IMG/VR virus record: IMGVR_UViG_3300017755_000082 | Span: 1-26,539 of that record | Strand: one strand, 5' to 3' | Source: a virus | DNA length: 26,539 nt | Shown: piece by piece, positions 1,120 to 26,539 of the stretch | Layout of the letters: each line of letters begins with the position of its first letter | How positions within the stretch are numbered: the stretch's first letter is position 1 | Made by a program: the position numbers and the translations under genes | Notes under the pieces: generated by a model | What the model was told of the DNA's origin: nothing | The model's input: only the letters and a program-made list of their open reading frames with translations | The model's database searches: none

Positions 1120-1416
1120 TTATCCTAGTAAAGTTGAGCCAGCACCAGTGTTAGCTGCTACTGAATTTCGTAGATTTCTTCTTTTTATTTCTTCCTCTGA
1201 AAGACTTTCTGCTGAATTTCTTAGATTTCTTCTTTTTATTTCTTCCTCTGAAAGACTTTCTACATCGTTCTGAGCTTGGTTCTCAGGTTGAGCTGCTATT
1301 TGTTGTACAGGCAGTTCTTTTTCTTCACTACCACCTGTTGCCATTTTTTTTACTTGTTGTATTGGTAGCTTTTTTTTATCTGCTAATTTTTTTATAACTC
1401 GTGACATTAATCCCAT
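1120..1416 (-). CDS. 98-aa charged protein with a 17-residue tandem duplication
   Basis: The N-terminus is basic (MGLMSRVIKKLADKKKLP). A Gln-rich linker follows, then two back-to-back copies of a charged helical 17-mer beginning ESLSEEEIKRRNLRNS, and a short tail ending GSTLLG. The duplication is nearly perfect in the DNA (51-bp unit), so it is recent. The repeat looks like an amphipathic helix. No family recognised. AGGA is 7 nt before the ATG. It sits between the proline-rich gene and the small basic genes in one operon, so a virion-associated or linker role is plausible but unproven. Confidence 0.75.
   Translation of the reverse strand: MGLMSRVIKKLADKKKLPIQQVKKMATGGSEEKELPVQQIAAQPENQAQNDVESLSEEEIKRRNLRNSAESLSEEEIKRRNLRNSVAANTGAGSTLLG
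1161..1262. repeat. 51-bp tandem duplication
   Basis: Two adjacent 51-bp units (1161-1211 and 1212-1262) match except for an internal G/T (1170 versus 1221) and the last base. They encode the two 17-residue repeats of the 98-aa protein. The near identity, including third codon positions, points to a recent in-frame slippage or duplication. Confidence 0.93.
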
Positions 1417-1420
1417 AATA

Positions 1421-1711
1421 TTATCCTAGTAAAGTTGGTTGATAAGTTTCAGCTTCTGTAGTCAAACCTTGTGGTCCTGTTAGGATGGTTGACTTTCTGC
1501 CTTTTTTCTTTTTGTTAACTGATGCTATTGCAGCTTCTTCAGCATCTTCATTGATAGCTCCTGTTGGATCAGCTGCTGCTATTTCAGATTCTGTTGGGGT
1601 ATTTGTAATTTGTTCTTCGGTGTTACCACTGCTTGGTGGATTGTAAGCTACAGGCTTTGGTGCTGGTGGCACAGGTGGCATACTTACTTTTGGTTTAAAA
1701 ATTCTGCTCAT
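1421..1711 (-). CDS. proline-rich small phage structural-type protein (96 aa)
   Basis: The protein starts MSRIFKPKVSMPPVPPAPKP. A Thr/Glu/Ala-rich acidic middle follows, then a basic patch (NKKKKGRKSTILTGPQGL) and a TLLG end. Small podovirus proteins with a Pro-rich N-terminus, a GR(K/S)STILT patch and a (K/T)TLLG-like end are familiar to me from T7-like and marine phages, next to portal, tail or terminase genes. Their exact role is unclear. The start codon lies within the 3' end of the terminase gene (17-bp overlap), with TTAGGA 7 nt upstream, which indicates translational coupling. Confidence 0.8.
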   Translation of the reverse strand: MSRIFKPKVSMPPVPPAPKPVAYNPPSSGNTEEQITNTPTESEIAAADPTGAINEDAEEAAIASVNKKKKGRKSTILTGPQGLTTEAETYQPTLLG

Positions 1712-2990
1712 GGTTCATTCCTAATGGGTTGTAATTATTGTCAGCTATACGCTGGGTTATTTCTTTATCATCTCGTAATTCTTCTAAGCCGACAGCTAAA
1801 CAGCGTAGGCTGTCACATGCGTGACTGCTCCAGTCGTGGACTGGTTTCATATTAAAAACTTGTAAGGTGTCGTTAAACTTACGGTGATAGTTACGCAAAG
1901 CATCTATAAGTTTCTTGCAAGTATCAACGTCTAGCCAGCAACGGTTTAGCAAGAGTTGCGTATAATGAATACCATCCTCTATACTTAGTTTAGGTACAAT
2001 CTTAAAACGTAAACCTAACTCGTAGGCTATTTCACGCCTGGACTTACCATTAGTAAACTCACGTTGTTCTAGATCGTGTGGTCCATAATGGTTCTTGTAA
2101 ACGTAATCCTTGCCGTTAATCACATTAATGTAATGGGGTAAGCCCTCATTACTGTTTTCATAATAATCTATAATCTGTACAGCTCGACCTACTTGCTGAA
2201 AAAACAAGATAACGGTTTTATCAGAGATGCCTATATCCCATGCCGTACTAACAGGATAAGTCGGATCATATGGCACTCGACCAACTTGACCTTTGTTTTC
2301 AATCTTTTCTACTATATCTCCATAGATAGCACCTTCTAGAGCTGCTACCCAATCACACTCGAACTCTTGTCGGTATTTATTTTTACCCATGAGTTCTAAA
2401 GCTGCATCTAATTCTTCTTGGTCAACAATGCCTGTTTGAGATGCTTTAGCAATCTTGGTGTACCAAGTCTTATCTTTCAGGCCGTGTTGGTACTTATTGT
2501 AAAAATCATTACTCATGCCTTGTGGTGTACCCACAAAATAACAAAAGCCTTTACGATCTGACAGAGCTGGTCGAATAATCTCAGGAAACAATCGTGGATT
2601 GATCTGAGCATATTCGTCACAGATAATACCATCGTAGTAATTACCACGAAGGCTATCAGGATTTTCAGAACCTAAGAGGGAGATCTTTGCTCCGTTAGGC
2701 AGAGTGCAACTAAGTTCTTGTTCATTAAACTTTGATCCAGGTATGACACCAGCATAGAATTTTAAGTAGTCAAAAATAATTGACTTTGTTTGTTTATAAG
2801 TTGGTCCGATGTATGCGTACCGTGGATTCCATTTGTCGTTAGTTAACGCCCTTTTAATTAGTTCATTGATGCACAATACGGATTTACCAGCACGCCTGTG
2901 AATGCTGAGTACAGCCCATCTATGTTTACTTAGTTGTGTATGTATGTCTTGTTGTAATGGTCGTGGACTATACGGAATAGTTATCTGCAT
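1695..2990 (-). CDS. terL: terminase large subunit (packaging ATPase/nuclease)
   Basis: This 431-residue protein is the motor that pumps and cuts DNA during head filling. The N-terminal ATPase has a deviant Walker A, HRRAGKS (residues 31-37), a Walker B, GIICDE (121-126), and the coupling motif FVGTPQG (152-158). The C-terminal nuclease domain begins at TAWDIG (Asp242), the first acidic residue of the RNase-H-like fold. A late acidic residue lies in VHDWSSHACDSLR (Asp393). The length is normal for a phage TerL. The ATG overlaps the upstream stop as TAATG. The small subunit lies about 500 bp upstream, separated by the 60-aa gene and a gene-free stretch. Confidence 0.95.
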   Translation of the reverse strand: MQITIPYSPRPLQQDIHTQLSKHRWAVLSIHRRAGKSVLCINELIKRALTNDKWNPRYAYIGPTYKQTKSIIFDYLKFYAGVIPGSKFNEQELSCTLPNGAKISLLGSENPDSLRGNYYDGIICDEYAQINPRLFPEIIRPALSDRKGFCYFVGTPQGMSNDFYNKYQHGLKDKTWYTKIAKASQTGIVDQEELDAALELMGKNKYRQEFECDWVAALEGAIYGDIVEKIENKGQVGRVPYDPTYPVSTAWDIGISDKTVILFFQQVGRAVQIIDYYENSNEGLPHYINVINGKDYVYKNHYGPHDLEQREFTNGKSRREIAYELGLRFKIVPKLSIEDGIHYTQLLLNRCWLDVDTCKKLIDALRNYHRKFNDTLQVFNMKPVHDWSSHACDSLRCLAVGLEELRDDKEITQRIADNNYNPLGMNHEQNF

Positions 2991-3172
2991 TAATGGACCG
3001 TTGGTTGTTTGCCATCTATATCTAGCAGATCAATATTTAAATTGTTGCAAATCCAATTAGACACATCTTTGCCGTGAATATTATTACGAAAGCCTGTAAC
3101 GCTAATTATTAAACTTTTGCTAGTTTCATCGTAAACGATCATTGCTAGCAGATCTTTTAAATCTTCATCCAT
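2990..3172 (-). CDS. 60-aa hypothetical protein upstream of terL
   Basis: A 60-residue, mildly acidic protein with alternating hydrophobic residues (SKSLIISVTGF, NLNIDLLDID) suggesting a small alpha/beta fold. No family recognised. Its stop codon overlaps the terL start (TAATG), so the two are very likely translated from one message. It is the first gene downstream of the gene-free stretch at 3173-3476. The ribosome-binding site is weak (A/G-rich GGAAATTAATAGAACC). Confidence 0.65.
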   Translation of the reverse strand: MDEDLKDLLAMIVYDETSKSLIISVTGFRNNIHGKDVSNWICNNLNIDLLDIDGKQPTVH

Positions 3173-3476
3173 ATGCGTGGTTCTATTAATTTCCTATTCT
3201 ATATACGCTACAACCGCAGCCCGACTTTTCGGGGTGTGGGTGGTCGGTGTTTCCAAAACACATGCCAAAAAAAATAAGGCTTTACCTAGCGTGATAATAA
3301 AAAAAAGATCGGCAGTCCTTATCGTGTCCCAGGATTACCAACAAATAATTTTAAAAAGTACCTGACCTAGTACCTCGAGCTGCCATACATCGTTGCACTT
3401 TAGTATCATTCCAATCTATCGAACTCCATGACGTGTGTGCGTAATCATACAGCTCTGTGTAATATATGGGAGATCA
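3173..3476 (-). promoter_or_regulatory. gene-free stretch between terS and terL operon, with repeats and hairpins
   Basis: About 300 bp with no convincing gene between the small terminase and the 60-aa gene upstream of terL. It contains two AGTACCT boxes 12 bp apart (3357, 3369) and a CAGTCCTT box (3313), an arrangement repeated near the integrase. It also has a 5-bp CCCGA/TCGGG hairpin (3220-3233) and a 6-bp GTGTTT/AAACAC hairpin (3247-3261). Poly-A/poly-T tracts lie at 3267-3274 and 3299-3306. Its place upstream of terL suggests late-gene control. I see no convincing -35/-10 pair. Confidence 0.5.
3313..3378 (+). repeat. copy A of the CAGTCCTT / AGTACCT box element
   Basis: CAGTCCTT at 3313-3320, AGTACCTG at 3357-3364 and AGTACCTCGA at 3369-3378. 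The same order and nearly the same spacings (43 and 12 bp) recur at 12004-12063, and AGTACCTCGA itself recurs at 12070-12079. A related copy (spacing 41) lies at 11845-11893. The boxes look like protein-binding sites; the protein is unknown. Confidence 0.6.
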
Positions 3477-3866
3477 TCACTTGATCTCTGGTATTACCTC
3501 ACTACTCCAAGCAATAGTCATCTTGGTATCAGCCTTAACATCTGCTTGTATCTTATCACCAAATGTACCAGCTAATAGTTTACTACTCATCCAACGTGCA
3601 TGATGTAGACGTTCTCTGTTCCATTGTACTGCTTGTGGTTCACACTCTTGTTGCAGTAACTCCATCATACTATCGAGGTAAGTCCATGCTCCAAGTTGTC
3701 TAGCATCAGCTATCTCTTTACGAATATCATCGTCATCCTTCATCCAGGAATACACAGTTGTGACTGCTGGAAAGCTCTTGTCACTACATATCTTAGATAG
3801 TGGAATGCCTTGCTGAAGTTTCTCCAATATTACAGGGATCTTGTCTTTTAAGTTTGTCTTTGACAT
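3477..3866 (-). CDS. terS: terminase small subunit
   Basis: A 129-residue protein of the small-terminase type. The N-terminal HTH region (LQQGIPLSKICSDKSFPAVTTVYSWMKDD) would recognise the packaging site. A helical centre (ARQLGAWTYLDSMMELL) follows, then the characteristic HHARWMSSKLLAGTFGDK segment seen in many phage small terminases. The ATG lies inside the upstream HGG-motif gene (74-bp overlap, different frame). The gene ends in two consecutive stops (TGA TGA), after which the same frame stays open for 40 codons (see findings). It partners TerL at 1695-2990. Confidence 0.85.
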   Translation of the reverse strand: MSKTNLKDKIPVILEKLQQGIPLSKICSDKSFPAVTTVYSWMKDDDDIRKEIADARQLGAWTYLDSMMELLQQECEPQAVQWNRERLHHARWMSSKLLAGTFGDKIQADVKADTKMTIAWSSEVIPEIK

Positions 3867-4035
3867 GTTTTAAATTCATTAATGCTTTTAGTTTGCCTTC
3901 AGGTGTCTTTGGTCCTGTCGATAACCCACCATGTAACTTACACTTACCATTAGCAAGTGCTTTAGCTTTACAAGGTAATCGAGTGGAACGAGCATAAGCT
4001 CCACACTCTTTTTTATGAAGTGGTCTACCTACCAT
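3793..4035 (-). CDS. HGG-motif phage protein (HGGLSTGPKT)
   Basis: An 80-residue protein with two cysteines and a histidine in CGAYARSTRLPCKAKAL and CKLHGG, then the hallmark GLSTGPKTPEGK. This Cys/His plus HGGxSTGPKTxEGK pattern recurs in many phage genomes, often just upstream of the small terminase, as here. A small zinc-binding domain is likely from the Cys-x-His pattern. The function is not established to my knowledge. The 3' part overlaps terS by 74 bp in another frame, an unusually long overlap for this phage. Confidence 0.8.
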   Translation of the reverse strand: MVGRPLHKKECGAYARSTRLPCKAKALANGKCKLHGGLSTGPKTPEGKLKALMNLKHVKDKLKRQDPCNIGETSARHSTI

Positions 4036-4087
4036 GATGGGCTATCTTAACAAAGAAAGGAATATCAAATACAATGATTTGCAAATG

Positions 4088-6277: not shown

Positions 6278-6377
6278 AATAGAATCAACGCTAGTGTAGC
6301 TTTTACTGTCTGTAAATAGAACGGTTTACTACATTTCGTAAACATGATAGTTTTTCCATTAGGGATACATAATAACT
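6278..6377. promoter_or_regulatory. divergent lysis/lysogeny control region with operator array
   Basis: This 100-bp divergent gap holds four half-sites in alternating orientation: TTTAC 6302-6306, GTAAA 6312-6316, TTTAC 6325-6329, GTAAA 6338-6342. The last pair is extended to GTTTAC/GTAAAC. A possible leftward promoter is TTTACG (complement of 6336-6341) with TATTTA 18 bp on, inside the array. No good -35/-10 pair is seen for the rightward gene. The arrangement fits operators shared by CI-like and Cro-like proteins. Confidence 0.7.
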
Positions 6378-6989
6378 ATGAATACAGATACTGGCACACC
6401 ATTTGACGGCAATATGATTGTCAAAAATGTTCTACACCGTTATCAAATATCACAAACAGACTTGTGTCAAAAACTTGGCTACAGTCGTGAAGCCTTTAGC
6501 AAAGTTGTTAATGGACATAGAGCTTTGTCAGTTGTTAAGGCTAAAGAAATTGCTTTGGCGTATGATTTAGATTGGCGTAGCTTTTATGAAACGCCAGCTG
6601 ATCGTTTTGTACCAGCTACTGCGTGCATAGATGCACTTTATGTACGCAAATTAAAACAAACTTGGATGATAAAGTGTCCTAAAGAATGGCACAATAACTC
6701 AGTATTTTATGCAATTTGTAATAAAGGTTTTGAGTATGACGAATACTGTTATGTCATTACTAAGAAAACCATACCGTTTGATGACAAAAAACAAGTTAAC
6801 GCTTGGACATTGTTTACCTTAAAAGATGGTAGTCAACTAATTGGTCATGCTGATGGTTATGCTGATCCACAAGGTAAAATGATTCGGTTTTATAATTGTG
6901 AAACTAAAGCCATGATGACTTTAGCAACTAAAAAAATTCTGACTATGCAAAAAGGCAGAGCTTTATTGTCACCAACAGACAACAAATAA
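6378..6989 (+). CDS. CI-like phage repressor, XRE-type HTH
   Basis: A 203-residue protein. The N-terminal XRE HTH (VKNVLHRYQISQTDLCQKLGYSREAFSKVVNGHRALSVVKAKEIALAYDLD, about residues 15-66) includes the usual VVNGHR turn. The C-terminal half (residues 75-200) has strands and a GHADGYADPQG loop near the position of the LexA/S24 fold, but I see no clear Ser-Lys catalytic pair. It may therefore be a non-cleavable repressor induced another way. Transcription is divergent from the Cro-like gene. The RBS is weak or distant (AGGGAT 12-13 nt before ATG), consistent with low expression. Confidence 0.78.
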   Translation: MNTDTGTPFDGNMIVKNVLHRYQISQTDLCQKLGYSREAFSKVVNGHRALSVVKAKEIALAYDLDWRSFYETPADRFVPATACIDALYVRKLKQTWMIKCPKEWHNNSVFYAICNKGFEYDEYCYVITKKTIPFDDKKQVNAWTLFTLKDGSQLIGHADGYADPQGKMIRFYNCETKAMMTLATKKILTMQKGRALLSPTDNK

Positions 6990-9596: not shown

Positions 9597-9796
9597 CACT
9601 AAACCAAGTTAAAGTTTTAGAATTTATTAAGAAGTTTATAGCTAACAATAGCTATTCACCAAGCTATGAAGAAATAGCTTTGCACATGAATTGGAAGGCT
9701 CGTAGTCAGGTGCATAACGTCATCAGGCAATTAGAAAAACGTAAGTACATAACGTATCTACCTAACCACTCAAGATCGGTTGTTATCAATGAGTAA
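9593..9796 (+). CDS. LexA-type winged HTH without a peptidase domain
   Basis: 67 residues that correspond to the LexA DNA-binding domain alone: TLNQVKVLEFIKKFIANN, then YSPSYEEIALHMNWKARSQVHNVIRQLEKRKYI and a wing ending NHSRSVVI. Full LexA adds a self-cleaving peptidase domain, which is absent. It could bind a LexA-like (SOS) operator without being cleaved on DNA damage, or simply regulate phage genes. It overlaps the preceding gene by 4 bp and the next by 8 bp. Confidence 0.82.
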   Translation: MTLNQVKVLEFIKKFIANNSYSPSYEEIALHMNWKARSQVHNVIRQLEKRKYITYLPNHSRSVVINE

Positions 9797-10142
9797 CAGT
9801 AACCCTGAACAATTTGAAATCAAATCTAACAGACGGCCAGGTAAACGTAAACCGTTTTACCACGACAATCAAAAAACTTATGTTGAGATAGAAGTTGATC
9901 CTAAAACTGGACAAGTAAGAGTAGTTAATTTTTGGCCAACAACAAAAGAAGGTACTGTGTTGTATTCAATGTTAATTGAGTGCGGCTATGATCTATCATC
10001 AATACTAAGCTCGTGGCCTGATCCGATGGATGGGTTGGCGGTATTAAAGACAAGGTGCTTGCGTAGAGGTGATGGCTCACCGATCACTCTGCGTGGAGCT
10101 GTGATCGATCATTTAAATAAAGATCCATATTTAGAAAAGTAA
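9789..10142 (+). CDS. 117-aa hypothetical protein
   Basis: 117 residues from the ATG at 9789, which overlaps the LexA-like gene's stop by 8 bp. A TTG at 9780 would add three residues. It has strands (YVEIEVDPKTGQVRVVNFWP) and helical parts rich in acidic, polar and hydrophobic residues, but no motif that I recognise. The stop codon is followed at once by the GTG start of the next gene, so they share a message. Confidence 0.6.
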   Translation: MSNSNPEQFEIKSNRRPGKRKPFYHDNQKTYVEIEVDPKTGQVRVVNFWPTTKEGTVLYSMLIECGYDLSSILSSWPDPMDGLAVLKTRCLRRGDGSPITLRGAVIDHLNKDPYLEK

Positions 10143-10454
10143 GTGGAGAACCTAAAGGTCCATCTACAATGTGACTTGTGTCACCATAGATTTAATCCAT
10201 TTAAACGTCATACAAAGTTTACCTGGGAATACGACTATCGAGGTATAGAACGTGTATTTTGCCAAACTTGCTCAAAAAAAGAAGCTCTGAGAGCTACGAG
10301 GATTAACGAAAAGAGGGCAGCTGATACTACAGCATACCCTCAAAACAGCCAAATTAGAGTGAAATCTGCTGTGAAAAAGCAGCAGCCAAACTTTGTGAGA
10401 TCTGCTGCTTATCCTCAACAGTATCAAGTGAGTGTCCGTAAACAGAAGCAGTAA
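10143..10454 (+). CDS. zinc-finger protein, 3' end antisense to integrase
   Basis: 103 residues from a GTG (10143) directly after the upstream TAA. The N-terminal CxxC pair (LQCDLCHHRF) and a second pair (FCQTCSKKEAL) suggest a small zinc-binding domain. The C-terminal part is basic and low-complexity with two related units beginning TAYPQNSQ and AAYPQQYQ. The last 101 bp run antisense to the 3' end of the integrase gene. Function unknown; it closes the rightward operon. Confidence 0.65.
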   Translation: MENLKVHLQCDLCHHRFNPFKRHTKFTWEYDYRGIERVFCQTCSKKEALRATRINEKRAADTTAYPQNSQIRVKSAVKKQQPNFVRSAAYPQQYQVSVRKQKQ

Positions 10455-11484
10455 AGCCAAAGTCTTTGTGTCCTAAGATAGTAGGTATTTGTTTAAAGTC
10501 TAAACCTAGCTGCACTTGTCGTTTCAACAACATACTAGCATAGAAGTGTCTAAACGAATGCAATCCAACCCAGCCTGTAATACCTAGTTTAGTTTTTAAC
10601 TTATCTAAACTTTGAGATATTTGATTGTGTGGAAGTGGGTTACATAATCTTGTATGTAAGACTAAGTCTTTAGGATTGTGCTTGCCTTTGTTAGCTTCTT
10701 GCCAGGCAAACAATGCATCAGCTAGCTGTGGCACTAACGGCACTTCTCGTCTAGCATTATTGTTTTTCAAACGATAGCTAACTACATTGTTTTCATCAGC
10801 TTTAGATCTAACCCAGATTTGATTTGATGAATACTTAACATTTTCCCATTTCAAACCACGGATCTCCGATGGTCTTAGTCCAGTAGTTATAGCAATTAGA
10901 ATGTACATAGCTAAGTAGCCATCAGCCTGGTTAAGCAATAGTTTAACATCAGCTTGATCTGGTATTGGTCGTTCAATCACACGGTGTTTTGTTTCTATGC
11001 TTTTCTCAAACTCATACAAAGCAATCCTGTTCTTAAAGTTATGTGTCTTTTCAGATTTCTTAGCTGCTTCTTTTAGCCTGGTAACTGACCGATCAATAGC
11101 ATCATCACTATACTTAAATGCTTTTAGTTCTTTCTCAGCAGCTTCCATGTCAACCACATTGACTTGTTTGATTTTCATATTCCACAGCTTAGTTTTTTCC
11201 CATCGAGCTAAGACTATTTTAATCTGTCGGTAAGTTGAATCTTCTACCTTACCTTCACGACTAGCAATCAGATCTTGTATTGATTTACCAACAGTAGGGC
11301 TTTCAGTTTCTATAACTGCCTGGTCAATGTTTTTGTTAATGTCATTGGCAGCTTGCGTAGATAATAGTTTAGCTAATCCTGTACCATGTTTGACAGTTGA
11401 CCACGATTGGGTTTTGTTAGTTCTTGGATCTCTTACACGATAGTATAAGACACCAGCCTTGTGTATTTTTTGAGCTTCAATCAT
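10354..11484 (-). CDS. int: tyrosine-family site-specific integrase
   Basis: 376 residues. Domains: N-terminal arm-binding region (about 1-60), core-binding SAM-like helices (about 65-160), catalytic domain (about 170-376). Catalytic residues seen: Arg204 in TTGLRPSEIRG, His309 and Arg312 in LHSFRHFYAS, His339 in LGHKDF, and Tyr349 in ASVYGHS, the nucleophile. The ATG overlaps the upstream 34-aa gene as TAATG, and translation is probably coupled to the two small genes before it. It would recombine attP with the host site; the adjoining 11801-12208 region carries a tRNA-Cys and repeated boxes, fitting an attachment site. The 3' end overlaps the convergent zinc-finger gene. Confidence 0.95.
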   Translation of the reverse strand: MIEAQKIHKAGVLYYRVRDPRTNKTQSWSTVKHGTGLAKLLSTQAANDINKNIDQAVIETESPTVGKSIQDLIASREGKVEDSTYRQIKIVLARWEKTKLWNMKIKQVNVVDMEAAEKELKAFKYSDDAIDRSVTRLKEAAKKSEKTHNFKNRIALYEFEKSIETKHRVIERPIPDQADVKLLLNQADGYLAMYILIAITTGLRPSEIRGLKWENVKYSSNQIWVRSKADENNVVSYRLKNNNARREVPLVPQLADALFAWQEANKGKHNPKDLVLHTRLCNPLPHNQISQSLDKLKTKLGITGWVGLHSFRHFYASMLLKRQVQLGLDFKQIPTILGHKDFGFTASVYGHSLDTVEDKQQISQSLAAAFSQQISL

Positions 11485-11844: not shown

Positions 11845-11906
11845 CAGTCCTTAACGTAATACCTAAGTGGGAATATGTCAATACTAGTACCTGGTACAGT
11901 ACTTTT
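11845..11906 (+). repeat. copy C of the CAGTCCTT / AGTACCT box element
   Basis: CAGTCCTTAACG at 11845-11856 and AGTACCTG at 11886-11893, spaced 41 bp. The boxes are followed by the palindrome GTACCTGGTAC (11887-11897) and AGTACTTTT (11898-11906). The order and approximate spacing match copies A (3313) and B (12004). It lies directly upstream of the integrase operon promoter region. Confidence 0.55.
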
Positions 11907-12003
11907 GGTGTATTTTTTGTTAGTATTTATGGGGTTTTTTAGGGAAATTTATTTTGGGTGGGATATTAAAATTTGTTACTTTTTAAGGATCTCTGTAGAT
12001 TTG

Positions 12004-12132
12004 CAGTCCTTTTTGATTCGTTGCTACAACTCAAATACTAATAAGAAGTACCTCAACTAGTACTAAAGTAGTACCTCGATTATTATTGAAAGTGCCAAAG
12101 TGGGAATGTATAAGAAGTACTTTAGAGGTACT
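12004..12132 (+). repeat. copy B of the box element plus inverted box
   Basis: CAGTCCTT at 12004-12011, AGTACCTC at 12047-12054, AGTAC at 12059-12063, AGTACCTCGA at 12070-12079, and the reverse-complement box GAGGTACT at 12125-12132. AGTAGTACCTC (12067-12077) pairs as an 11-bp inverted repeat with 12125-12135. ACCTCGATTA at 12073-12082 recurs at 12205-12214, just after the tRNA acceptor stem. Confidence 0.6.
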
Positions 12133-12137
12133 ACTAT

Positions 12138-12208
12138 GGTCCAGTGGGAGAATGGTTATCCGATGGATTGCAAATCCATTTACATCAGTTCGATTCTGAT
12201 CTGGACCT
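12138..12208 (+). tRNA. tRNA-Cys (anticodon GCA)
   Basis: A complete cloverleaf. The 7-bp acceptor stem GGTCCAG (12138-12144) pairs perfectly with CTGGACC (12201-12207). The D-arm is GGA/TCC. The 5-bp anticodon stem ATGGA/TCCAT encloses the loop TTGCAAA with anticodon GCA at 12170-12172. The 5-bp T-stem ATCAG/CTGAT encloses TTCGATT. The discriminator is U (12208), the identity base expected for cysteine tRNA. CCA is not encoded. It lies next to the attachment-like region and on the opposite strand to the late genes. It could be a phage tRNA or the host-derived integration target carried in attP. Confidence 0.95.
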
Positions 12209-12211
12209 CGA

Positions 12212-18416: not shown

Positions 18417-21400
18417 TTATCCTTCTAGTGCTGCCACTTTAGTTTCTAAGGTTTCAATTCTTGTTTGTGCTTCTTGTAAAGCCTTGATAGCTTTCATATA
18501 TAATACAGAATAGCTAACAGATTTAACTTGTTCGGTAACTTCTTTGACATCACCAATAGCTTTACCTTCAGGAATATCATCACCATCTTCATAAAGTGTA
18601 CCAAATTCAGATGAAGAAATAATATCAGATTTTTCTGGGTCACGAGACTTAACTAATCCAGGACTAACTGTTTCAGTTTCTTGTGCTACTAAACCTAAAT
18701 AAGTTTTTGCAGCTTGACCACCACCTTCTTCAGTTCTAGCTTCGTCTTTAAGTTTAAAGTTTCTAACTTTTAAACCTTTGATATCATCCCATTGAGAATT
18801 AGCATCAGTTATGTTTTGTTTAATTCTTTCGTCAGAAGTTGCACCATAACTATTAGTGGCACTATCAAAATCACCATTAGCATAAATTACAGCTCTAACA
18901 GTGCTATTATTATTGCCCACACATCTAAAGAAATAACTACCTGTGTCATTTACAGTAGAGCTAAAATTTATTTGTTGTCCAAAAACATTACCACTTGTTT
19001 TGGTGTTTTTTACATAAAGTATCACATCATTTAAATCTGTAGTAAGTGTATGTTGACCATCATAACGAATAGTTAATCTATTTATATCGTGTGTTTTTAA
19101 ATTTAAGTTTTGTTGTGAAGTCGGACCAAAACCAAAACCCCTGTTTCCTGAAGCATCTAAATATTCTACTTCCATTTTACAGTTATCAGAGCCTACATTC
19201 CATTGTTGTAGTTTTTCATCACTACCACCACCAACAGAAACAGATCCTTGTACTTCAAGTAGCATATCAGGAGAACTTGTACCAATACCTACTCTATTAT
19301 TTTCACCATCAACAACAAACATTGTAGCATTATCATTGGATTCTATACGAAAATTTCTGTCAACCGAAGCGTCATTAAAAACAGTTTCAGTTGGACTTAT
19401 ATGAAAAGCATCAACTACCGCACCAGCAGTTAGCATATTAAATGTTAATTGAGCATCTTCAGTACCATCACTTGCATCTCGTATTAATGCATTAATAGAA
19501 ATATGGTCTAAGGCTTCACCAGCATCATTATCAGCAACAAATCTTATTCTACCAAGTGAATCATCATCTGCTGGAGAACCACTATCTCTTTGTAAAACAA
19601 AATCAGGACCTACGCTTGCGTCAGCATCAGTAGATTTTAGAGTAAGTTGAGCTGTGTTATCAGCAGTTGTGATTGTAGAAGCTGCTGTTGCAGAAATTGC
19701 ACCTGTTACACTCAATGCTCCAGTTGCTACTGCACCAGTTGTAGTAATGGTAGATGATCCAGTATCAATGTTACCAAAGCCCGATGTAATTGTACCAGCG
19801 TTTAATGCACCTGTGCCTGTGACGCTAGTGTAAGAACCAGCAACTCGTGCTACTGGTACTGTGCCACTACTTAAATTATCAGCATTTATTGATGCTACAC
19901 TAAATGTACCAAAAGCTACAATGTCAACTTCATCACCATTAGTAAGAGCTGAAGCAAACGTAACAGTATCACCTGATGTTACCGTCACATCAGCTGTACT
20001 CATTCTCACACCATTTAGATAAACGTCTACAAACCCAGCATCATACGCAAGAGTATTACCAGCAGCGTCACTGCCTGTAACAGCTGTCGGTGTACCTGAA
20101 ATATCGTAGTGGTATCGTTGAGCTGTACCATTGACAGATGAACCAGCATTTTGCCAGCCACTTGCACCGTACACATTCAACACATTAGTTGACGTATTAA
20201 AATAAAGATCACCAGCTGTCAGTGAGCTAGTGGGAGCTGATGATGCTATTCGATAAACGTCACCAAAATTATTTACCGCAGATAAATTAGATGCAACAGT
20301 ATTAACATTAGAGATTGAGCCACCAACATTATTAACATTACTTACAGCACCAGCCACAGTTGCAATATTAGCTACAACACCACTACCATTTAAGTTAGCA
20401 ATGTTAGTTAAAACACCACTAGCATTTAAGTTAGCCATGTTTGTTACATTAGTAGATGTGCCTAGTGTATTTAAATCAGAAACAAAGTCGGATGTTGCTA
20501 GTAAATTTAAATCCGTAACAATGTCAGACGTTGCCAGGGTATTGATGTCAGAAACAATATCGGATGTTGCAAGTGTATTTAAGTCACTCACAATGTCAGA
20601 CGTTGCTAAAGTATTAATGTCAGAAACAATATCAGAAGTAGCTAAGGTATTTAAATCTGAAACAATATCAGAAGTAGCTAGTGTGTTTATATCAGAGATC
20701 ACATCAGATACAGCCAATGCGTTCATGTCAGAAATAACATCAGATGTAGCAAGCAATGCCATATCTGCAATCACATCAGTTGTAGCAAGCAATGCCATGT
20801 CCGCAACCACGGCACTAGCAGCTAGAGTATTAATGTTAGTTTGATTGGATGAAGTAGGGGTTGTAGCTTGCCAAGCAGATCCACTATACACCATTAATAG
20901 GTTGTTGGTTGTATTGAAATATAATGCACCTGTAAGTAAAGAGTCACCATCATTGTCAGCAGATGGATCAGAAGATTTTTGTCCTAGGTATCTATCGTCA
21001 AAATTATCTAAACTTGTAGCTGCACTGGTAGCTGAGGTAGCAGCTGCTGATGCTGAAGTAGCTGCTTCACTAGCTTTAGTTGTAGCTGTGTCTTTATGAC
21101 CTGAAGCTGTCGATGCACTGGATGCCGCAGCTGTAGCAGAACTAGCAGCAGCCGTAGCACTTGATGCGGCAGCAGTTTGACTTGTAGTTGACGATGCAGC
21201 ATCTACTAATAAACTCCATTTAGCAGAATCTGTATTAGTTGTAAGTGGCTGTGAGCCTGAAGAAGTATGAGCTGTTAGTGCAATAAAAATATTATTAGTT
21301 GAAGTATCTTTAACTATATCTCTTGGCACATAAGATGTAGACGCACCCCAGTTGCCTTTAAATGTACCTAATTCTTGAGTAACGGATAATTCACCTGAGC

Positions 21401-25855: not shown

Positions 25856-26539
25856 TTACTGATTAGCCAATCTATCATATATATCTGCACCATAAGTAGT
25901 TTTCAGCATATCAATTTCATCTATAATGTCATTTTGTCTACGTTCAGGAATCTGACTGGCTTTTATATCAAGTTTAGATTGAGTAATATTATTGACATCA
26001 ATTAAAATATTATTGTCAGTCATAGCTGCACTACCATTTATATCAGTAATTACATTTTGAGCAGACGTTAATAATTTAGTTTGAACAAAACTATCAGCTT
26101 CTATCATAACTTGATTAAATATTTCTATTGGACTTAGTTTACCTTCCATTACTAAATCATCAAATCTTTTTACATATATGCTAGTAGCATCATTATAGGC
26201 ATCAGCTCTAGTTGGATCATTTTCTTGTAAACTTTCAATGTAAGCATTGTTAGTAGAAAATATTTGACCTTTAATATTATTACGCAAACGATTGACCAAT
26301 GGTGATGATATACTTGTTACCGACACATGAGTATCGTGCAAATCTTTGAAAGTTGCTTCAGTTACAGTTGGTCTTAGTGCAAGTATTTCAGCATAATCAT
26401 AATTACCTTTATTAATTTCTGCTTTTTCTATAATGACATCAATCGTGTCAACATCAGCATAATTAAAATTATTTTTTGATGCAGCTATTAATTGTAGTGC
26501 TGTGCTATCACCAAGATTGTCTGTTTCTAGTTGTTTATA
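25856..26539 (-). CDS. partial virion-like protein, 5' end cut by the window edge
   Basis: The frame is open from the stop at 25856 to base 26539 without a stop, at least 227 residues. The TTG at 26341 is therefore only an internal codon, not a reliable start. The visible part is helical and Asn/Asp/Thr-rich (for example KLDIKASQIPERRQNDIIDEIDML at the end), with no membrane segment. Its stop is followed after 2 bp by the ATG of the 307-aa gene, so it is the upstream gene of the same operon. A structural or ejection-protein role is plausible by position. Confidence 0.6.
   Translation of the reverse strand, partial: YKQLETDNLGDSTALQLIAASKNNFNYADVDTIDVIIEKAEINKGNYDYAEILALRPTVTEATFKDLHDTHVSVTSISSPLVNRLRNNIKGQIFSTNNAYIESLQENDPTRADAYNDATSIYVKRFDDLVMEGKLSPIEIFNQVMIEADSFVQTKLLTSAQNVITDINGSAAMTDNNILIDVNNITQSKLDIKASQIPERRQNDIIDEIDMLKTTYGADIYDRLANQ

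Follow-up and report, generated by a model that had tools for sequence, protein, structure and literature searches.

Genes and repeated boxes in the window

The window analysed here is the linear IMG/VR virus record IMGVR_UViG_3300017755_000082 (26,539 bp), which stems from a temperate phage. The record is incomplete: contig L078 links base 26539 of the window to base 1 via ~9.9 kb that are absent from the record. The large terminase subunit (TerL) is 59–62% identical to that of HTVC010P-type pelagiphages, which form the Ubiqueviridae (PMC10504331), and the phage belongs to a family of ocean phages that are kin of the phages of SAR11 bacteria. The genes and sites relevant to this study are listed in Table 1; Cro-like and LexA-like regulators are also encoded in the window. 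A tandem duplication of ~51 bp was seen in the sequence at 1150–1260, inside a small ORF (1120–1416, minus strand).

Table 1. Positions of genes and sequence elements in the window.
Feature	Position	Strand	Basis or remarks
terL (terminase large subunit)	1695..2990	-	gene search
p60, small conserved ORF lying between site T and terL	2990..3172	-	
Conserved CACACCCCGAAAA block	3225..3241	-	alignment; precedes TA-rich stretch and p60
Site T overall, terS-terL spacer	3307-3375	- (direction of terS/terL)	arm pair, spacer and half core
Site T half core AAGGACTGCCGATC	3307..3320	-	12/14 positions as in attP core
Site T spacer	3321..3356	-	AT-rich, ~36 bp, length constant in relatives
Site T arm pair AGGTACT-N5-AGGTACT	3357..3375	-	12-bp spacing; top 12-bp-spaced pair of whole window
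terS (terminase small subunit)	3477..3866	-	phrog_1482, E 1e-19
CI-like regulator	6378-6989	+	
Tyrosine integrase (int), predicted N-terminal three-stranded arm-binding sheet	10354..11484	-	PF00589, E 1.3e-21, and model
Putative attP overall, beside integrase gene	11845-12132		same parts as site T
Second core-like box AAGGACTG (unit A), upstream of int	11845..11852	-	41 bp from P-side arms
P-side arm pair	11886..11904	-	adjoins TTGACA of likely int promoter
Presumed attP core AAGGACTGCAAATC	11998..12011	-	tRNA-Cys anticodon arm likeness; by analogy with relatives
P'-side arm boxes AGGTACT, AGTACT, AGGTACT	12047..12076	-	
Outer arm boxes, AGTACT and inverted AGGTACT	12116..12132	+	
Complete phage-borne tRNA-Cys	12138..12209	+	

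A sequence-only reading of the window had described three copies of a box element, at 3313–3378, 12004–12063 and 11845–11893, and all of these positions proved correct. The first box, CAGTCCTT, occurs at 3313, 11845 and 12004 only. The second, AGTACCT, is found on the plus strand at 3357, 3369, 11886, 12047 and 12070 and on the minus strand at 12126 and 9950; as that reading had it, the copy at 9950 alone falls in a likely gene, and the order of the boxes is common to both loci with nearly equal box-to-box distances (44, 43 and 41 bp). A single AGTACCT is weak evidence: 7 copies were observed where 3.4 are expected, and a count of 7 was reached in 10 of 100 shuffles. The spaced pattern AGTACCT-N5-AGTAC has exactly three matches in the window, all at the terS-terL and integrase loci, and a control pattern has none. 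Among 53,040 scored positions of the window, the best three AGGTACT pairs with 12-bp spacing were likewise one at the terS-terL locus (site T) and two in attP, and the boxes were less dense in coding sequence. Overall, the repeat is genuine, and more pronounced than had been supposed. A pair of AGTACCT boxes 161 bp apart in contigs L043 and L057, a spacing also present in the window, was rejected; it sits in apparent coding sequence.

Site T between terS and terL

Site T is conserved in related phages and its layout is rigid in 20 related contigs. The distance from the first box to GGACT is 60 bp in 20 of the 21 sequences (window included) and 59 bp in L027; the spacer sequence itself varies. 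The T boxes of relatives read AGGTWCT, CGTACY, TGTACY or CGTTCY, with the 12-bp spacing retained in nearly all, and an IHF-like CAANNNNTTR was read by eye in the spacer of some relatives only. Matches to a consensus sigma-70 promoter or a terminator at T were at chance level only; the conserved CACACCCCGAAAA block is, judged from its sequence, a candidate late promoter or hairpin. By eye, no T-like module was seen upstream of terL in HTVC010P, HTVC035P and HTVC106P.

Site T also holds an imperfect palindrome, TCCT-N11-AGGA. Contig L078 (identical to L011) starts inside it (GGACACGATAAGGACTG), and 16 of 17 contigs cross T; the start of L078 at this point could mark a cos end, a break made by recombination or an accident of assembly. 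Apparent sequencing-adapter or vector sequence is present at the start of two other contigs (L012, 1–27; L060, 1–40). Four contigs (L026, L043, L044 and L057) have an additional gene between p60 and terL. Upstream of p60 in HTVC028P (L098, ~186–206) and in a prophage from a single amplified genome (SAG; L113, ~9772–9792), TAATACGATTAATTATAGG shows a likeness to T7-type promoters; according to the Skadi paper, however, these phages rely on the host RNA polymerase.

attP and its presumed tRNA-derived core

In the window, arm-type repeats flank the presumed attP core on both sides, about 9–10 kb from site T. The P-side arms adjoin the TTGACW box of int in several of these phages. The core of the window has a likeness of 12–14 nt to the anticodon arm of tRNA-Cys, and relatives hold clear tRNA pieces (tRNA identities assigned by eye): a 3'-end piece in G001, G005 and G010 (GGCGGGAGTGACGGGACTCGAAC or GGTGCGGATAGAGGGACTCGAAC) and the 5' half of tRNA-Asn (...GTAGAGCAGTTGACTGTTAA) in HTVC028P and the SAG prophages. 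The tRNA-Cys of the phage (GGATTGCAAATCC) lies ~130 bp from the presumed core GGACTGCAAATC (window 11998–12209). It may replace a disrupted host tRNA, and a C-to-T change may avoid self-integration. A similar plan has been described for CRP-810, whose 13-bp core falls midway along the host tRNA-Thr and which carries a phage tRNA-Thr (PMC11288001); exact tandem arm pairs were not found at the int gene of CRP-810. Contig L004 departs from the window, L005 and L006 just beyond the 3' end of tRNA-Cys (3690–4041), after which phage homology returns. This divergence is possibly a trace of recombination at the tRNA; a host junction was rejected, as phage genes continue on the far side.

The half core at T reads TGACGGGACTC in G001, TGACAGGACTC in G005, TAGGAGGACTC in G010 and TAGAGTARTTGAYT in the Asn types. 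It matches the attP core of the same phage, and the tRNA-derived core word changes together with the boxes; in HTVC028P both box and core are the same in attP as at T. Site T was among the best 2–7 core matches in each genome, and the core pairing was maximal in a permutation test, with 12 of 5,040 pairings as good, as many as ties among identical cores would produce. In the phages compared, T and attP disagree in the overlap bases beside the half core. As strand exchange requires an identical overlap, T is not classed as a functional att site; since the overlap is not conserved, T probably binds integrase without recombining.

Co-variation of the boxes at T and attP

The DNA flanking the integrase gene was compared in relatives with differing integrases, and the word at T was set against the word at the integrase. 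Relatives with other integrases have a different box that is identical at both loci (CCGTACY, ACGTTCY, CCMTACY, GGTGCCA, ATTCATCA or ATTCACTAT). The words are the same in G001 (CCGTACY) and G010 (ACGTTCY) and also agree in G021 and G023; G005 and G004 have CC(A/C)TACY at both loci with one mismatch at T, and in G009 (TerL 55%) pairs of GGTGCCA occur at the integrase and at T, where they are inverted. When whole contigs were scanned, with a G005 word that allowed for T, pairs of a phage's own word ranked top at T and attP and foreign words mostly failed to single out T; the exception was CCGTACY, which came first at T in G005 and G004 as well, two phages with a similar word of their own.

Two Pelagibacteraceae (SAR11) single-cell prophages were chosen via terL only. 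Their T repeats, ATTCATCA (11-bp spacing) and ATTCACTAT (10-bp spacing), predicted the words at the integrase, which were found there in both cases. In the cultured phage HTVC028P, the ATTCACTAT pair at T is the best pair in the genome; its attP, like that of G023, holds single and inverted copies and no tandem pair as at T. The match in G002 is weak: of the three CCGTAGYG copies on the strand, two precede int and one lies in T. The most striking T repeat of G002, a tandem GGCATAGC at 11-bp spacing (L046 reverse, 20129–20150), has no match near its own integrase. In a permutation test without hand-picked words, 8 of 40,320 pairings were as good as the true pairing; word discovery from attP alone was clean for the window, G010 and G021 and partly for G001 only, and some of the T regions compared are homologous to one another.

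Outside this group, a tandem repeat marks the start of int in a Tropicibacter prophage (TerL 33%), whose related pair stands 3.7 kb upstream of terL and not immediately before it. In L123/G019, the integrase is 91% identical to that of G010 and the late module is a different one; there was no match to Terminase_6N, and no arm pair stands out except in attP. The lack of a T-like pair despite a G010-like integrase suggests that T is tied to this terminase and late module.

The correspondence of words and their joint change at the two loci are well supported by these sequence comparisons. Co-variation across ~7 integrase types favours the earlier suggestion of integrase arm sites with a second locus.

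The protein likely to bind the boxes

The boxes change with the integrase. Contig L018 has a different word and an integrase only 24% identical to that of the window; TerS (92%), TerL (97%) and the LexA-like (97%) and CI (88%) proteins have remained similar, Cro (70%) is more variable, and the other phage proteins compared are mostly 70–99% identical. Among annotated phages, only distant integrase homologues were found for the window and G010 types, and none for the G001 type.

The part of the integrase concerned is indicated by natural variation. The integrases of L122 and L123 are 97–98% identical outside the N-terminus (98% in the catalytic domain), and their five N-terminal differences all lie in residues 7–27. 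The attP arms differ (ACGTTCC in L122 versus RGTGCAR in L123), and the core is the same; L123 carries a different late module, so the comparison bears on attP and not on T. Conversely, the 60 N-terminal residues and the arms are the same in G010 and L122, whose catalytic domains are 90% identical. Fisher p values for the L122/L123 and G010/L122 integrase comparisons were 0.027 and 0.008. The structure predicted for the integrase of the window (pLDDT 75) has strands at residues 5–9, 12–18 and 25–29 followed by a helix at 35–54, and the closest solved structure in the PDB is lambda Int on core DNA. In this model, residues 7–27 would be within the arm-binding sheet. It is thus well supported that the attP words track the N-terminal domain of the integrase.

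The best reading is that the AGTACCT/AGGTACT boxes are arm-type sites of the phage integrase and that CAGTCCTT/AAGGACTG is a core-type half-site. Site T is, with high probability, an integrase site. The sequence-only reading had also proposed a single protein controlling both loci; the integrase is now indicated as that protein, and its control of late genes from T is plausible.

Possible function of site T

We propose that the boxes at 11845–12132 make up attP, served by the phage's own lambda-type tyrosine integrase, and that 3307–3375 would be a separate half-att module with arm pair, ~43 bp and half core, in which the second half core and the strand-exchange overlap are not retained. The integrase, probably with a DNA-bending protein, would bridge arms and core at T in a complex that does not recombine. 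Such a complex could lower transcription of the late genes, or packaging, when integrase levels are high, that is, during the establishment of lysogeny. Taken as a whole, an integrase-bound half-att module that lowers late transcription or packaging is the probable explanation of T. Physical binding of the integrase is what the matched words suggest; the regulatory outcome is the less certain part. Regulation is favoured by the fact that integrases repress promoters via att sites, as with IntS of KplE1, and by the P-side arms lying beside the TTGACW box of int; it is disfavoured by T having no visible consensus promoter. A role in late transcription has somewhat less than an even chance, and one in packaging is rather unlikely. 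Tentatively, the integrase might double as a direct switch of the late and packaging module, tying the integration decision to the shut-off of virion production, with selection rewriting T whenever the specificity changes.

Other proteins could in principle read the boxes. An excisionase (RDF) or other small regulator resembling Apl, binding direct repeats at both loci and controlling excision as well as late genes, would agree with the 10–12 bp spacing of the repeats at T and attP, as Apl combines the roles of excisionase and regulator and recognises direct repeats spaced by roughly one helical turn (PMC7498355). However, the repeats lie on both sides of the core and the half core co-varies at T, as an integrase predicts, and the differing arm words of L122 and L123 go along with changes in the integrase N-terminus. 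The small protein p70, encoded next to int, was rejected as the binder, being absent from L004 and L005, where the sites are kept, and present in L018 and L030, where the words differ. An Apl-like regulator is therefore improbable. The presence of CI-like, Cro-like and LexA-like proteins in the window makes operators a further candidate, yet the intergenic region 6278–6377 has its own inverted repeat (GTTTAC...GTAAAC) without AGTACCT, and the word differs in L018 despite the similar LexA-like and CI proteins, Cro being more variable; we regard operators as extremely improbable. Overall, CI, Cro, TerS, the LexA-like protein and p70 are all unlikely binders.

The location between terS and terL, the palindromic layout and the start of L078 within the palindrome would also fit a site T that is chiefly cos or pac, with terminase cutting at TCCT-N11-AGGA, the repeats serving as TerS sites and the likeness to attP being secondary. 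This is improbable: 16 other contigs cross T, which leaves the support from a contig end weak, the repeats differ between the window and L018 in spite of the similar TerS, and they also occur at attP, which is not a packaging site. Control of packaging by integrase at an overlapping cos is still conceivable. Active recombination between T and attP, which would split the genome into two circles, one running from int to terS and the other holding the late genes, or would let modules be swapped, is suggested by the same orientation of arms and half core at both sites and by the break of L078 at T. The overlap bases beside the half core differ and a rearranged contig was not seen, so this is very improbable. 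Binding of the integrase at T without recombination thus accounts best for the co-varying boxes and half core.

Comparison with known systems

The choice between lysogeny and lysis is poorly understood in temperate phages that infect ocean bacteria of the SAR11 type. If true, an integrase site that is conserved at the boundary of the late genes and tracks changes in specificity would be direct evidence of a recombinase role in the lysogeny decision. The matched arm words and N-terminal domains also form a natural series for decoding arm recognition by integrases, and a cultured phage with matching T and attP is at hand in HTVC028P on HTCC1062. HTVC028P, of the HTVC010P type, has an integrase, a T pair and a matching attP box and core. 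The elements of the system are already known: arm and core sites, integrase autoregulation and recombination proteins that regulate, such as Apl (PMC7498355). A co-evolving integrase half-att module between the terminase genes was unreported in the literature searched, and its novelty is provisional.

Site T resembles lambda-type attP and attL in having arm sites in tandem, a spacer long enough to accommodate a bending protein and a core half-site, together with the Int-like predicted fold of the integrase. Unlike these, T is detached from attP, lies between terS and terL, and has one-sided arms and an overlap mismatched to attP. In KplE1, IntS lowers transcription at att-type sites (PMC2951348), and there, as here, arms adjoin the int promoter; that promoter is in attL, whereas T is a detached site in the late and packaging region. 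Cluster J mycobacteriophages have arm-like sites at the start of int that were proposed to be regulatory (PMC3706429). These share with T the occurrence of arm-type words outside an attP arrangement, but they are inverted and at int, whereas T is at the terminase genes, has a core half-site and co-varies with the integrase type. Apl of phage 186 provides the precedent for one recombination protein acting through direct repeats at both att and a regulatory region (PMC7498355); Apl is an RDF that acts at early promoters, whereas the present evidence indicates the integrase, and a site in the late region.
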